A stretch of 64,000 nt of DNA, from positions 13,831,806 to 13,895,805 of the forward strand of contig OZ029921.1 of assembly GCA_964023275.1 (NCBI GenBank), read 5' to 3'. Shown in pieces: positions 2,251 through 56,964 of the stretch. The notes below the pieces were generated by a model. That model was not told the origin of the DNA. It saw nothing but the letters and a program-made list of their open reading frames with translations, and did no database searches. A program made the position numbers and the translations under genes. The number at the start of each line of letters is the position of its first letter. Position 1 is the first letter of the stretch. The stretch is from Norana najaformis (taxonomy: Eukaryota; Annelida; Clitellata; Crassiclitellata; Hormogastridae).

Positions 2251-3760
2251 AGCCAAAACTTAGACCTTGCCGGCCAATCTAGTAATTCGTCGCATCATCA
2301 TCACCATCACCATCACCACCACCACTCTAATTATCATCATCTTAAACCATGGGCTCAGCGCCCGTAGGTGTCTGATGCCATTCTCACTATATTCATCCAC
2401 TATTGTCTTTCCAGTGCGGCGGGGCTCAGGTCGACAGCATTTGGTTACGTCATCCACCCATCCTTTATGGGGTCGTCCTCTCTTGTCTGGTTCATCCATC
2501 ATTCTTGATCTGCCTATCGTTACTCATACTGCATGTGACCAAATAATCCCAGCTTCCTCTGAATTATCTTCTGCATCAAGTTCTCGTTGAAGTGTATCTA
2601 TCTGTTAGCTCTTCATTGCTCACTTTTTGTGTCCGTCCTATTTTCATAATCTTCCTATAGCATTTTCTCTCGAAGGCCAGTATCCTTCTTTCCACGTCTT
2701 TCGTTATTACCCAATTTACCCAAGCCTCACATACATATAACATGCTGCTGAAAACACATGTTTTCAAAACGCTCAGTTTTGTCTCCAGCGTTATGGCTTT
2801 GCTTCTCCAGATCTTATCCGTAGCTTTCAGTATTGCTGTCGCCTTTGCAATTCTGACTAGTAGGCCTACTTTTTTCTTACTGTCCAAATCATACGTGATA
2901 TTACATCCAAGGTATGTAAATTTTTCAACATTTTCCAACTGAATGCCGTCCACGACCATCTTCTTCGTTAAATTCTTTTCCCCAAATACCATTGTTTTTG
3001 TTTTATCAAAATATCACGGTAAGGCCATATCTCTTTCGTTCTTCGTACAGCGTTTGTACTGTAGGCTTCAATCGTTGTGCGTCTTCTCCAATCAGATCAA
3101 TATCGTCAGCAAAACAAAGATTGTTGATCCTTATGCTGCTGACTACTCCTTCATCGTTTTCCTTGATCTTGTCCAGTGCTCTTTCTGGGAGTGTGATGAA
3201 AACACTTGAATGAATGAATGAATGCCCCGCCTGCTCATCTGCAAGATGTTCTTCAGTCTGGCTCCTGAGTCTTTCTGTTAGTATCATCATCAGTACTTTA
3301 CCAAGGTGACTTATCAGAGCAAAAGTTTTATAATTATTGCATTCCAGTGCATTTCCTTTCTTGTGAAGAACAACTAGAGTTGACTTCTTCCATTCATTCT
3401 GCGTGAGTCCTTCTTTCCACATTGCATTACAAAACTTGTGTATCTCCTGATATCTCCTCCACTTTTTATCACCTCGCCTGTTATACCATAGTTGCCCGAA
3501 CTTTCGTTGTTTTTCAATCGTCGTATCACCTCTGCCTCCAAGATATCATTTCCAATATCTTCACCTGGTGGAGATATTTCTTTCAGTTCTGTAATTACCT
3601 GTTTTGCTGTTTTGTTTTATTTTCATCCATTTGCGCTTTGTACAATTTGCTATGTACAGTAAGCTGTCCATCTTTGTACAATGTCTGCCTTGTTCATCAG
3701 CACTGCACCTTTTCATCCTTGATTGCTACCAGTCTTGGCTGCCGTTTAAAAAAAATATTC
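2250..3760 (-). mobile_element. RTE-like non-LTR retrotransposon relic, internally deleted
   Basis: Minus-strand frames spell a degraded reverse transcriptase. In order from 3760 down: a linker with LKNN and GITGEVIKSGG, then NNYKTFALISHLGKVLM, ADEQAG, the catalytic-box FADDIDLIGED, and the C-terminal FTYLGCNITYDLDSKK and TCVFSSMLY. After ADEQAG the frame runs through a GAAT repeat straight to the FADD region, so a large central part of the polymerase is missing. The 3' end (about 2294-2335) is an ATG/GTG-type microsatellite, as usual for RTE elements. Frameshifts confirm it is dead. Confidence 0.8.
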
Positions 3761-46825: not shown

Positions 46826-48180
46826 GTAAGTAAGTAAGTAAGTAAGTAAGCTAGCATTTATAGCGCGCTTAAACAAAACTAGTCTTGCACGAAAGCGCGT
46901 AACATGAACTAAGTTAATCATAGTACAGTCTAAATAGATGAGTTTTAAGTGCAACTTTGAATGCAGTTATCGTAGGTGAGGTTCGGATGGCGATTGGTAG
47001 CTTATTCCATTCCGTTGGTCCGGCGAGAGCGAATGCGCGGTTTCCAAACTTCCTGGTAGAACGGGTGGTAGCAGAAGAGCGGACGTAGATGAACGCAGTC
47101 CTCGTCTAGACTGGAGGGAGGAGCACGGGGTGACGAGAGATGTCAGGTAGGATGGGGAGGAGTGGGTAGATATGCGATACATTAAAAGACAGATCTTGAA
47201 AATAATGCGGGCTGGTATAGGAAGCCAGTGGAGTTCACGTAGAGTCGGGGTAATGTGATCACGTGGGGAGAGATTCTTGATAAGCTTTGCAGCAGAATGA
47301 AGAATGGAAGTAAGTGGATGGAGAGTGGAGGCAGGGAGGCCATATAGAACCGAGTTACAGTAGTCTACACGTGAAATGACAAGCGCTTGTACTAGAATAT
47401 GGAGATTTTCGTTTAGGCTTTTCTTGACCTGGCGAATGCGTCTGAGATGGAATAAACAGGATTTGGTTATAGAGGAGATGTGTTTTTTAAGGGAAAGGGA
47501 GGAGTTCAGCAGGACATTAAGATCGCAGACAACTTCGGATGGAGTGATAGAGCAATCATTTGAAAGGTTGAGGGTAAGGTTTTGAGAATCCGGGGCGCAG
47601 AAAGGGCGATGAATGAACCAAATGAGTTCCGTCTTTGAGGCGTTAAGTTTCAAACGCATTGAAGCACATCAATCTTGGATTCAGAGAAACAGGAAGAAAG
47701 ACGACGTTGAGTATTGTCGATGTCATGGACAGATAGTTTAATATAAAGTTGGCTGTCGTCAGATTAGAGATGAATAAAAATGCCATGTTTGAGAGCGATA
47801 GAAGATATCATAGAGATGTAAAGAATAAAGAGAAGAGGACCAAGTATAGAGCCCCGAGGGACACCAAAGAGAAGATAGAAACGTTTAGAGGTTTTAGCGC
47901 CAATGCGTACTCAAAGGGTAGGATCTGCAGTGAGGAAGTTTGCTATCCAGAGTGTGCAGAGGACGTTATTCCGAACTGCTTTTCAAGTATTTGTAGGAGG
48001 ATTTGATGATCAACACAGTCAAAGGCAGAGCTGAAGTCGAGCAATAACAGAGCAGAGATGAGGCCAGCGTCCTGTGCTAGGGATAAACTATATAGACAAT
48101 TTAGACTTCCCTTCCCACTTGAAGATCTGTCTTGGAGTTCAATTTTCTTCCAGTTCCTTGGAAGAAAGTTCACAGTTTGG
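46826..48180 (-). mobile_element. L2/CR1-like retrotransposon, 5'-truncated, well preserved
   Basis: Minus strand: LLLDFSSAFDCVDHQILLQ (about 48060) carries the first polymerase Asp motif. A frame change lies between about 47940 and 47660, and then a 230-codon frame (47659-46967) runs MRLKLNASKTELIWF, VICDLNVLLNSS-type strand, VISRVDYCNSVLYGLPAS, and DHITPTLRELHWLPIPARI. The 3' UTR ends in TTAC units (46826-46850), a target-site-primed tail. This is the longest intact polymerase stretch in the window. It is truncated before the endonuclease. Confidence 0.88.
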
Positions 48181-50730
48181 ATTCTGAAGTGAAACCGGAC
48201 ACTTTTCCTTTGGCTTTCGATGCAATTCGAATATGGCGACGCCGGGAGACGGCTTCTTCTCGAACACAGTACATCAACGATTGAAGATTAATCCTTAAAT
48301 CGTTTCTCGTGATCAGTTCACTGATCATCCGACTTCATTTGATGACAGTTACACTGATTATTCGTAACTTTTGATAAATTAAACGAGTATACACGTAGTT
48401 CAACGACCTCGCGTTGCGATGAAGATTCGCAGTTCCTACAGTCACGACTTGGTTACGGATTACATCCACAGTTCGATTTTCGACCGATTCAACGAACTTT
48501 CGATCGGTGAGTCATTGGAACTACTTTGTCGCAATTAAGACTCGATTATCCGCGAGTTACACAGCAGTTAGTTACCCTTAAATCATTGGAAAACTCGACT
48601 TTTCCATACGAGTAATGTGAAGGCAGTTCAAACGGTCTTAACACCTCCGTTGCTCAACACAAGACTGCTGGTTTTCAACGTCCTTTCATTTAAATACCCG
48701 TCATAGATCGTCTGCTCGAAGCGTGACGTATACATCATACGTGGCGAAAACATGATCACCCAATCTGGTTTCCATGGTAAACAGCTGTTTTTAAGTCATT
48801 GGCGTCCTTCAATTCTGCAGATTCACTGTCTATAGAATCCCCATTGAACGTTTGACTTGCACAGAAACGCTTAGTCAATACAATTTTAACGCCCAGCTAA
48901 ACTAACTAAAATCTAACTATTTACATACATGTAAGCTGGTCATTTATTAATAATAAAATCCTACAGTCTACACTATAGCTGGCCGGCTAATCTTAAGTCT
49001 AAAATCTTAATCGGCTACTCTATCTAGTCTGTACACTAAACTTAACCCTAATAAGTATGTACACAAAACGCAAGATAACCTAATCAAATGCGCAATAAAT
49101 GGAGGTTCGCTACAGTGGTCCAGGATCGGGTGCGGGGTAGGACAATTTGAAATTTTGGGTTTCAGTCGGGTGTGAAACTGTCGTATCGAGAGGACAGACA
49201 GAGAGCTCATATTTACATCTGGATGCTGTTGGAATTAAGTGTAACATATTATAAGCAATTCAGGCAATTGATGGCGCTTAGGTAAAAATGAACTCAAATG
49301 AGCTCTTGTATTGTGAACATGGTGGCTGTTTTGGTGTTCCTGATCACTCTGGTTGATATGAGAACCTTATTCTCGCACAACCTGTACTGGATGAGGCAAT
49401 TCCAACAGATTCTAAAGAAAACCTCTTTAAATTGAGCTTCTATCTTTTAGAGAGTTTCCACTCTTATGGAATGACCACGTGTTGATTGTCTGTTCAGTGA
49501 TGATTTAGACCTTAATTTGGTCGTTTCAGCCGTCCAGAGCAACTTTGCAATAATTTGCCTCAGACAAGATTTTGGCTGAATTTGGTTAAAGGTGATCGAT
49601 GGCCAGCGGTGACGTACAGCTACCTTCTTATGCTGTTCTTACTGCTGTCATTGTTACTGCTGCTGTTGCTGTTGGCGAATATCGATCAAGAACAGAGGTA
49701 GGAGGTCCGTTGCAACAACGGACTCCGCCGCCGTCATCGTCGTAGACGTCGTCGGTCGGTTGCTGTTGGATCATCGCAGAGATCGGACAAGAAGAAGAAG
49801 ACGACGACGACGACGTCCGGAACTGCGCATCGATAACTCAATCCGGAAGCCTAATGGATTATCGGTGAATGGCTAAATAACTGGCCTCGTACTCCTCGCC
49901 TCCTACTCGCCCCCTTCCTGCTTCTATCATCATTCCTTTCTCTCGACCATCAATGCCACCACGGAGCGCTCTATTCTTTTTCCACAGTATTCTTTTCGTT
50001 TTCTATTCTCTCTCTATATATATACGTCTTCTACCGTCTCTATTGTGCTTCTAATTTTTCTTCTTAGTTACTTTTCATTCATATTTTCCTATTTTGTCTT
50101 CCATGTCGTCTTCCTTCATCGTTATCCTGACGCATCGTATGTTGTCTTTTTTTGGATCATCTGCCGTTGGATCCAGTTATTTTCATCATTCTGTTTCTCT
50201 ATATTAAGTTCTTGTCTTTGCTCTTTTACGGCATTTTCTACATTTCTCTGTTGCGCTCTGTTTAAATCAGTTCTTCTTTTCGGTGTTTTTTGTGTTCTCA
50301 TTTCTTCCTGTGTTGTTACTGTTGCCAATTGGTTTATTCCCTGCTGTTTATTATCCACACCATTTCCTTTCTAAATTCTAGTATTCTGGCTTCAGGGTAT
50401 AAATTGTCCAGCTACTACTACTCCCTGCCTCCCTCTCTTCCTCCATTTCTCTTATTCTCCCTGCTTCACAGATCTATCATCATTTCTCTTTTCCCTTTCC
50501 TTTCCTTTTGCCTATCTTCTTCTTTACTCTGACGTTTTGCTACGTCGATTAACGAACGAAGGCTCCTGCAGCGACGCCCTGTTGGTCGTCGACGCCCTCT
50601 GGTCCCCACGAAGCCACCCGACTGCATCCATCGGCCAAGCAGCGTAACGCAAACTCCGTTCGACCGGCTGTCCATCCGCCCGCTTGTCAGTCAGCGCAGC
50701 CGCCCGGCCGAACAGCTACGCTCAACCGCC
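48181..50730. other. Unassigned sequence
   Basis: No supported gene. Low-complexity CGA and AAG units at about 49785-49815 and a pyrimidine-rich tract at about 49890-50520. Confidence 0.3.
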
Positions 50731-50779: not shown

Positions 50780-51391
50780 GGCGCCTGTCCATCGTCTGTT
50801 TGAGGCGTTCAGAAGAATAGTTGAGGCGCTGGTGTTGTATTGACTTTGGTGAGTGAATAAGCTACAGAGATCGACGGAAGTCGATGACCACCATGAGGAA
50901 GGGCGTTGAAATGAGTTCATCATGAACTTCGTCTTCATCATCGCACCGATCGGCTTACTGTACTCATCTGCATCAACCCAGCTGCATCCCATCGGTTCAC
51001 CGGATGAGCAGCAGAGAAGGAAATTTCTTTCTTTCAAGGACGGATCACTTTACATCAATTGGATCTGACAAAAATACTTTGCAACAGACAGCGTAACCTC
51101 ATCATTCGATTTAGGAATTTTTTAAAATTACTATTATTGGTCTATATTAACATGCATCGAAGATGATCAAAATAGGCATGACTAAAAATGTAGGTCGATA
51201 GAAGAACAGTCGAAATGAAGATAATCACTTGTTGTCACAGAGATGGCTTCTTCTCTAACACAGAAAATCTCTAAAGAAAGAACTCGTTCAAGCGGATTGT
51301 TCTCTTTATTCGGCAAGCAAATTGTTTACCGAGATTCTTTATTGGCATCTGCTCTTTTAGAACTTCCTTCGCGTTTCCTCATGGCGCCTCA
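50780..51391 (+). other. 5' flank of the tandem-ectodomain gene
   Basis: No TATA box is evident. A block near 51240 (GGCTTCTTCTCTAACACAG) nearly matches one near 48249 (GGCTTCTTCTCGAACACAG), suggesting a shared repeat. Confidence 0.3.
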
Positions 51392-51395
51392 ATGA
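51381..51395 (+). promoter_or_regulatory. Upstream ORF overlapping the start codon (ATGA)
   Basis: ATG at 51381 opens a four-codon frame whose TGA (51393-51395) overlaps the ATG at 51392. This arrangement can reduce or couple initiation at the main start. Both starts have weak contexts. Relevant only if the transcript starts upstream of 51381. Confidence 0.4.
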
Positions 51396-52660
51396 CGTCA
51401 CCGTTGTCCTTGCGTCACTTCCTTTCGACTGTGGCCTTCGTCATCCTGGCCCTTCTGCAGGCGTATGGGGTTCATTCCAGTTTCGGTTTATGGGCGGTCA
51501 ATCCGAGCTACTCCTGTGTCTACGAGGACCACCTGGTAACAGACAAGAATTGGTATGGCTACCTGGCTAACATAACTATCATGACGACTGGCAGACTCAC
51601 TTTCGAGTTTTCATACCCAGCCGACAAGTGTTGCCAGAACATTTTGTTCTACTCGGAGGACCAGATGTCGATCATCAACGCCCGAATGAACTGCTGGCAG
51701 AAGGAGTACCTTCTGCGACCTGAAGAGGACCAGATCCTACGCCTCACTCCGCGATTCTCCTGGTCCGGGTGCCACATGACGCATCCCAACGACATCGCCA
51801 CCTACGTCTGTAAGGGCGGCCGCAGCTTCACCGTTGAGCAGCCGGGGGACAGACCGACCACATGGTACATCGCCGCCAGCAACTGCGCCACCCTCCAGGG
51901 CCTCGACCTCGAGTACCGCATGGAGATCTTCGGCCACATCGGAGATTGCCGCTCGACCATGCACCTGGATGCCGGAGACCAAGCGACCGCCTCTGCCTCA
52001 GCAGCTGGAGGAGGAGGAGGAGGAGGAGCATTCGCATCCTCTGCTGCAGCGCTTCCATCGCCAAGGGCAGACATGGCAGCCCGCGACCCGGAAGTGGCCT
52101 CGGCGTCTGCATCGGCGATGACATGCATAGTGGAAGGGGACGTGAATACAACGGCCAACTGGCACGGGTTCATCACCAACATATCGGTTGTCACGGGCGG
52201 TGGATTCGCGTTCCGCTTCACCTACCCCTACCACATGCAAGTGCAGAACGTCATCCTGTACAACGAAGACGACGTTCTGAAACTGGGTTGGGACCGAAAC
52301 TGCTGGCAAAAGGAGGGACTCGTCCACTCCCACCATGTCCCCGACCAAATCATAGACCTCAGCTACCGATCGTCCTGGAATGGATGCGTCTCCAAGAATT
52401 CCAGCTACGGTCGGAACCTAACGTGCCAGGGCGAGCGCCGCTACGGCAAGCCGCGTCGCTTCTACGTCGCTGTCAGCAATTGCCGCACGTCGAGTGGTCT
52501 GCTGCTCAGCTACAGGTTCGAGGTGTTCGGCTATGATGACACCGAAATGTGTTCAGCTGCTGCTACAGGCAATCGGAAACTCGTCGCATCAGCCGACATC
52601 TGTCTTCGGCGATTCATCGTAGGTTATATGGTCGCATCGTTTGTCCTTCGGTCTATCTAA
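51392..52660 (+). CDS. Secreted or anchored protein with two tandem TMEM145/GPR180-type ectodomains
   Basis: An intronless 422-aa frame, distinctly GC-rich against AT-rich surroundings. Residues 10-29 form a signal peptide. Two homologous domains follow. Domain 1 (about 42-186) has NWYGYLANITIMTTGRLTFE, FSYPADKCCQNILFYSED, NCWQKE, FSWSGC and WYIAASNC. Domain 2 (about 245-387) has NWHGFITNISVVTGGGFAFR, QNVILYNEDD, NCWQKE, SSWNGC and FYVAVSNC. This pattern is that of the extracellular GOLD-like domain of TMEM145/GPR180 proteins. Cysteines recur at matching positions, except that Cys80-Cys81 of domain 1 are absent in domain 2. Sequons occur at N60, N252, N263, N336 and N342. A Ser/Ala/Gly linker with seven glycines (about 196-243) joins the domains. 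The seven-helix region of the family is missing; a short hydrophobic C-tail (about 408-422) could be a GPI signal or a single anchor. Function unknown. Confidence 0.85.
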   Translation: MTSPLSLRHFLSTVAFVILALLQAYGVHSSFGLWAVNPSYSCVYEDHLVTDKNWYGYLANITIMTTGRLTFEFSYPADKCCQNILFYSEDQMSIINARMNCWQKEYLLRPEEDQILRLTPRFSWSGCHMTHPNDIATYVCKGGRSFTVEQPGDRPTTWYIAASNCATLQGLDLEYRMEIFGHIGDCRSTMHLDAGDQATASASAAGGGGGGGAFASSAAALPSPRADMAARDPEVASASASAMTCIVEGDVNTTANWHGFITNISVVTGGGFAFRFTYPYHMQVQNVILYNEDDVLKLGWDRNCWQKEGLVHSHHVPDQIIDLSYRSSWNGCVSKNSSYGRNLTCQGERRYGKPRRFYVAVSNCRTSSGLLLSYRFEVFGYDDTEMCSAAATGNRKLVASADICLRRFIVGYMVASFVLRSI

Positions 52661-56180: not shown

Positions 56181-56394
56181 CCACTTATGTGTGAGGCACC
56201 CTTAAGATCATAACAAAATAAATGTATTTCACCCATGACTAATGTGTAAGACATTCTCTCAACATATATCATATATTACATATTTGTTCAATAGCATTTA
56301 AAATGTTCAAAAATTGTGAAATTACAACATTTCAAACTTTTAAAACTTTTATAACATAAAATGTCGTCATCAAAGCGAGCATCGATTGTTCACC

Positions 56395-56586
56395 TTATCT
56401 TCTTTTCGCAGGTGAAATGAGTTGCCCAGGGTTTGTCTTGATCTCCGATAGGCATGCTGAAATATACCTTCACACATCTTACGTAGCAGGTGCTTCCACG
56501 GAGTAATTTTTCGCTCTTGTCTTGATAAATTGGCCGCAGACATAGCAAAATGCGTCTGCCGGATGCTTGCAGACTTTTGATACCAT
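56395..56586 (-). pseudogene. Relic of a cysteine-motif protein (CYVCG / GDQDKPW family)
   Basis: Minus ATG at 56586 opens MVSKVCKHPADAFCYVCGQF and continues IKTRAKNYSVEAP to a stop at 56479-56481. After frameshifts, homologous sequence resumes as KMCE and then MPIGDQDKPWATHFTCEKK near 56455-56400. From memory this matches the N-terminal half of an uncharacterised, much-repeated family of invertebrate proteins with paired cysteines (Cys-x2-Cys, possible zinc ligands). The C-terminal half is not found. At least two frame breaks mean it cannot make the full protein, although a 35-residue peptide could be made. It starts about 45 bp from the TATA box described separately. Confidence 0.65.
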
Positions 56587-56630
56587 CTTAGATATGTATC
56601 CACTTATGCAGCTACAGCTAAACTGAACTG

Positions 56631-56638
56631 TATTTATA
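56631..56638 (-). promoter_or_regulatory. TATA box (minus strand)
   Basis: TATAAATA on the minus strand, 15 nt from the edge of the HSF-site array and about 30 nt before the expected start near 56608. The ATG of the relic is at 56586. Confidence 0.7.
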
Positions 56639-56653
56639 CTGCTAGTTATATAT

Positions 56654-56716
56654 TTCTGGAAAGTTCCAGAAGGTTCTCGGACGTTCCAGAATATTCTCGA
56701 AAGTTCTAGAAAGTTC
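56654..56716. promoter_or_regulatory. Heat-shock element array, 13 consecutive units
   Basis: TTC and GAA trimers alternate every 5 bp, at 56654, 659, 664, 669, 674, 679, 684, 689, 694, 699, 704, 709 and 714. Twelve are perfect; the one at 56679 is GGA. Three inverted nGAAn units make a basic HSF trimer site, so this could bind several HSF trimers cooperatively. With the minus-strand TATA box 15 bp away it reproduces the layout of strong heat-shock promoters. Confidence 0.9.
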
Positions 56717-56964
56717 TAGCAGTTACTTCAAGTTTACTCAGCACTGAATTCATTTTGAATGTTCTGTAAAGTAGGTAAATTTCAGAACATCACTGTCCTG
56801 GTCACAAAAGCAAAGTTTGTGGGAAATAATAATCATTTTCTATACTTTTGAGGCATAAGCAATTAGAAAATAACTCTTACTACTCAGGAGCAAAGGAATA
56901 AACATTTGTTACACGGTGTAACGCTTGATGCAAAGTGATTTTACTAGCAAATTATATTTGGCAC

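Follow-up and report, generated by a model that had tools for sequence, protein, structure and literature searches.

The window analyzed here, a 64,000-nucleotide stretch of the Norana najaformis genome, contains a 63-bp array of heat-shock element (HSE) units, in which TTC and GAA trimers alternate in an exact 5-bp phase, followed on the minus strand by two TATA boxes and a broken exon (Table 1). At least three alternating nGAAn units in 5-bp phase characterize an HSF-responsive promoter; here, 12 of the 13 units are perfect, and the single imperfect unit reads CGG on the plus strand in place of the expected GAA. Runs of at least four perfect chained units were confined to this array and its own seven-unit sub-run, and in 30 simulated windows (first-order Markov, same composition) the longest run consisted of three perfect units. 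The original prediction had described the array as far beyond chance, and the simulations agree. It had also placed a TATA box on the minus strand 15 bp from the array and an ATG at position 56586, both of which were located. The ATG starts a short frame, MVSKVCKHPADAFCYVCGQF, after which stops break the frame. The nearest recognized gene to the array is a 461-aa open frame on the plus strand (51275-52660) with two matches to TMEM145_N (E = 1.6e-47). A 114-aa frame on the minus strand (47943-48287), without match in Pfam, resembles, in its motif, part of a LINE-type reverse transcriptase.

Table 1. Features of the transposon copy in the window, with positions counted from the first letter of the window
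Feature	Position	Strand	Basis
Truncated transposon copy	56206..56918	-	Similarity and boundaries among 30 loci; last ~1.7-1.8 kb missing
Flanking TTA, TWA-like target trinucleotide before the 5′ end	56919..56921	-	TWA directly before the start in 15/28 copies, damaged starts included
5′ terminal inverted repeat, inner limit approximate	56767..56918	-	Alignment to other copies; 3′ partner lost here
HSE array	56654..56716	.	13 units, 12 perfect; 13-unit array shared by the 28-copy majority
First TATA box, mutated in the window (TATAAATA in other copies)	56643..56650	-	Comparison with 28-copy majority and junction pattern
Second TATA box, TATAAATA, intact in the window	56631..56638	-	Read in the window sequence; gap to array 15 bp
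Broken exon 1 of putative transposase (CYVCG, degraded GDQDKPW region)	56395..56586	-	3′ limit approximate
5′ part of intron, copy ends within	56206..56394	-	Other copies reach the TTTTGCAG acceptor and exon 2

The 608-Mb genome (17 contigs) was searched with 261 bp taken from the exon/TATA side, excluding the array, and 40 scored matches among 226 candidates were obtained. Thirty of these loci, the window copy included, formed the comparison set. When they were aligned, similarity between the window copy and the others extended from ~56922 to 56206, some loci matching over part of this range, and the first base of the element was placed at 56918. On the 3′ side, most other copies extend through the end of the intron (TTTTGCAG) to exon 2; the window copy ends at ~56206. 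Judged by this similarity, the minus-strand segment belongs to a dispersed DNA transposon, of which the window contains one truncated copy, represented by its 5′ end. The feature is thus larger than the promoter and gene relic assigned to 56395..56716 by the original prediction and does not consist of an isolated promoter ahead of an orphan gene. The gene had further been called a broken member of a repeated family. The broken frame was confirmed, as was repetition across the genome; repetition within the window was not, as tblastn with three relatives and one exon 1 detected the protein family at the window copy only.

The whole element was read from five 8-kb stretches (L035-L039). Where both ends were readable (four copies), it measures 2.15-2.73 kb, and terminal inverted repeats of 106-128 bp, with 80-88% identity, are present in all five, as expected of a TIR transposon. 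The termini are CACCGTG-like at the 5′ end and CACTAAG-like at the 3′ end (reverse strand). Among nine copies with both flanks readable, a 3-bp target duplication was exact in four, had one mismatch in four, and had two mismatches in one; some doubt attaches to this feature, as the copies are old and 5/9 duplications are imperfect. Copies with a damaged or out-of-reach end (L037, L011/L068, and L033/L078) were left out of this count, and six other 3′ stretches provided no usable end. The element carries one two-exon gene, and no second gene was recognized in it. By this sequence anatomy, the element is a cut-and-paste-type DNA transposon of ~2.5 kb with inverted terminal repeats and short target duplications. 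Helitrons have neither inverted repeats nor target duplications and encode a Rep-Helicase. A Helitron assignment was rejected, given the inverted repeats and duplications and the lack of any Rep or helicase match.

The array recurs with the element across the genome. A pattern spanning the array and double TATA junction, with three or fewer mismatches allowed, was found at 164 places (85 + 79), compared with none for the reversed pattern; at these places, as in the window, the array stands shortly upstream of a TATA box, the layout expected of a promoter. A more demanding pattern of six perfect units was found at 73 places (control, 0). Fifty of the 73 were listed, corresponding to 44 separate arrays, and every one of them is within or next to the element: 19 are beside copies already found by nucleotide or protein search, as judged by position, and 31 fall in 26 loci (L001-L004, L045-L064, L086, and L087), every one of which still matches the element when the array is masked (26/26). 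Conversely, among the 30 loci picked without regard to the array, 22 have at least six perfect chained units and 28 have at least four. An absence of HSE arrays from other family members, which had been named as the outcome that would count against the original prediction, is contradicted by the 164 junctions and the 73 places with six perfect units. The array is flanked by the 5′ repeat on one side and the TATA box on the other. In all five copies compared, it is confined to the 5′ end, with no counterpart in the terminal 320 bp at the 3′ end.

Two variants were observed. One is a pair of oppositely oriented arrays, each with six perfect units, at L002 and L003 (G000:C1:33048469 and 33048969); they are separated by 500 bp, and element sequence surrounds both. 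L056 (from 483) and L064 (from 478) have 11 consecutive perfect units, with TTC at unit 8, where the family majority (28 copies) has TCC; these two copies perhaps represent a sub-lineage with a perfect array. The majority TCC also indicates that the imperfection of the window array is ancestral.

Individual copies diverge from the family majority by 4-9% in the 5′ region (L015 and L027, poorly aligned, were set aside), and the window copy diverges by 7.2%. Mean conservation outside CpG was the same in HSE cores and spacers (0.94 each) and was 0.91 in the 5′ flank and 0.95 in exon 1 (28 copies). Upkeep of individual arrays was sought and not detected, whether cores were compared with spacers (p = 0.64) or with the 5′ flank (p = 0.14). 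As cores and spacers have decayed alike, nothing indicates that single copies have been retained as host switches, and the sequence divergence fits a single old burst followed by neutral decay. The same lack of extra conservation in the cores might be taken to mean that the array is a functionless product of chance or a low-complexity tandem repeat, and Tandem Repeats Finder does report a 10/20-bp periodic array at the window site. We consider such an origin extremely improbable and rejected it: no simulated window exceeded three perfect units, the reversed-pattern controls returned nothing, and the family majority has the same 13-unit array next to the TATA box.

In the gene downstream of the array, exon 1 contains the CYVCG and GDQDKPW motifs of the original prediction along with paired cysteines, and exon 2 contains motifs that we named WREP, CYFC, PLHIKLGL, and GERFHQD-like. 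Seven pieces of the gene gave no convincing Pfam family (best E = 0.019, far below the cutoff), two intact relatives matched no Pfam family, no PDB chain was matched to the gene, and NCBIfam gave no usable match. Isolated Pfam hits within a 34-row alignment (DUF2789, GRAS, and others) were taken as chance, as were two weak matches, one to a Scarecrow-like PDB chain (E = 0.05) and one in NCBIfam (E = 0.06). A search for relatives in viral contigs retrieved 62 pattern matches, none of which was confirmed.

Within the genome itself, a 141-aa piece of the gene retrieved 152 listed matches (150 of 4195 candidates scored), which fall into two groups. The first belongs to the same family as the window gene and is largely decayed. 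The second is younger, with 50-55% identity, and about 50 of its listed matches have open frames of at least 500 aa. Five relatives, of which three are near-identical, were aligned, and all share D264, D318, and E516. A structure model from a single sequence was poor (mean pLDDT, 38.5), and one built with 34 rows from the same genome was weak (mean pLDDT, 53.4); in the latter, we read D264 and D318 as lying at strand ends in an order that may be RNase H-like. As the sole recognized gene of the element, with conserved acidic residues and this weak model, we infer that it encodes the element's transposase.

It might instead be a captured host gene in a nonautonomous element that is moved by another transposase, with the heat-shock promoter having come along. 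The lack of a Pfam match and the abundance of a related gene family in the same genome would suit such a capture. We regard it as quite unlikely, however, as the gene occurs with transposon ends in two families, one of them young, repeated, and near-identical, and no second gene was recognized in the element.

That young family (L040, L041, and L085; G000 contigs C1, C10, and C2) has an uninterrupted 569-aa frame in copies that are ~99% identical (99.0% between L040 and L041), and L041 has CACTGG ends with TTA on both sides. By its sequence, the family may still be active. A further relative, L043 (G000:C8:10410700-10414900), has a 624-aa open frame with ~50% identity to the 569-aa protein. 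Neither the young family (L040, L041, L044, and L085) nor L043 contains a run of more than three perfect units. Thus, as far as seen in these sequences, the array appears to be a trait of one transposon lineage. Six loci from among the lower-identity protein hits had been candidates for intermediate families. Five (L080, L081, L082, L083, and L084) were identified as decayed HSE-family copies, and L085 as a copy of the young family.

Host hsp70 genes offered a second comparison. A family search gave 65 matches; of five loci taken from it, three include gene starts that were examined (L088, L089, and L090), while L091 and L092 are 3′ parts with no promoter region. L089 has six units, four of them perfect, ending ~33 bp before TATAAA. 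At L088, there are two 3-unit sites, and ~24 bp separate one of them from the TATAAA that follows. In the ~470 bp before the L090 gene, no run of three perfect units was found; therefore, array length does not simply track heat genes. The host hsp70 sites are the same in form as the transposon array, and the transposon array is longer than any seen at the three hsp70 starts, which have at most four perfect units.

These comparisons bear on what the array is for. Plant CACTA elements have subterminal repeats that are bound for transposition, and the array, which lies just inside a terminal repeat, could likewise be a binding site for a zinc-finger-like protein of the element itself, given that the paired cysteines of exon 1 could bind DNA; its likeness to HSEs would then be coincidental. 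The exact nGAAn phase, however, is the HSF consensus, and the host hsp70 sites are of the same form. The array also extends up to the TATA box, lacks a counterpart near the 3′ end in all five copies, and is absent from related families with the same gene. Taken together, these points leave the subterminal-repeat function with a low probability.

A different possibility is that HSF does drive the promoter through the array, but to express the transposase during development or in the germline instead of in response to heat. HSF has developmental roles in animals, and germline expression benefits a transposon. Nevertheless, long arrays adjoining a TATA box are the classic strongly inducible layout, and hsp70 locus L089 of the host has a shorter version of this same layout. 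We consider developmental or germline use in place of a heat response unlikely.

We favor, as probable, the interpretation that the window contains the 5′ remnant of a TIR transposon that was stress-mobilized through its own heat-shock promoter, in a burst that spread most, if not all, long HSE arrays of the genome. HSF trimers bind inverted nGAAn repeats and do so cooperatively in long arrays, close to the TATA box. Under heat or other proteotoxic stress, HSF trimers would thus be expected to occupy the array cooperatively, and transcription of the putative transposase would begin ~30 bp below the TATA box. More transposase would mobilize copies with intact ends, so that transposition would be timed by stress, and a past burst would have dispersed the element together with its arrays. 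The original prediction had offered two options. That of a mobile element with an HSF-type promoter is supported by the dispersed copies, inverted repeats, target duplications, and common array-TATA junction. The other option, a cysteine-rich family that is heat inducible as such, is not supported, as the sole recognized gene is best read as a transposase and the related family lacks the array. More tentatively, and with distinctly less confidence, the element may have gained its very long promoter independently and, in a stress-timed burst, left essentially all long arrays, some of which could now confer a heat response on nearby host genes, in convergence with nematode Helitrons.

In C. elegans, two thirds of the HSEs are reported to lie in Helitrons. 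The Rep-Helicase gene F33H12.6 of C. elegans Helitron1_CE is described as heat induced, with 14 HSEs in its promoter, as is CBG26851 of C. briggsae Helitron7_CB, with 85 HSEs upstream; a large share of C. elegans HSEs is likewise placed inside Helitrons (PMC6927752, PMC8896005). These HSE-bearing Helitrons are the clear closest precedent: there, as here, many HSEs are found in the promoter of a DNA transposon's own transposase gene, putative in the present case. The mechanisms differ, as the Caenorhabditis elements are rolling-circle transposons with a Rep-Helicase, whereas the present element has inverted repeats, target duplications, and an unrelated gene. In addition, a heat response of the element and consequences for host genes have been demonstrated in the nematodes; for the present element, both are hypotheses.

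Heat-responsive mobility has precedents outside animals. ONSEN of Arabidopsis is transcribed on heat stress via its own promoter; it is a plant LTR retrotransposon, whereas the present element is a DNA transposon. In Cryptococcus neoformans/deneoformans, CNEST (CMC supergroup) moves more at 37 degrees, and the LTRs of TCN3 and TCN12 contain one or two putative HSEs each (PMC12810828). The present element resembles CNEST in being a DNA transposon, CNEST being one whose mobility rises with temperature, and TCN3/TCN12 in having HSEs in its promoter. It differs in that the Cryptococcus elements are fungal and that the passages considered here name HSEs for the LTR elements, with no long array.

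The ends of the element also invite comparison with the CMC group. CMC elements (CACTA/EnSpm/Chapaev) have CAC termini, 2-4-bp duplications, inverted repeats, and possible acidic catalytic residues with CxxC motifs. The CACCGTG/CACTAAG ends and 3-bp duplications are of this type; in contrast, the protein has no Pfam match, whether as seven pieces of the gene or as two intact relatives, and homology to known CMC transposases was not detected in this way. Because its protein matches no Pfam family, the element is described as having CMC-like ends and is not filed as CMC, and its sequence would be compatible with a remote relation. No report of the element appeared among the papers listed in searches of an open-access library.

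If our interpretation is correct, the element would represent an independent instance, in an animal, of a transposon that drives its mobility gene via HSF, in a TIR element and not in a Helitron, and one genome would contain dispersed, ready-made heat-responsive sites. The old idea of stress-triggered transposition would become testable with a defined promoter, for which the related young family without the array would provide a built-in control. A minor observation concerns one copy of that family: the 3′-shortened copy at L040 is flanked by direct repeats of 51 bp (845-895 and 3098-3148; 98% identical), which are far longer than the 3-bp duplications of the group.
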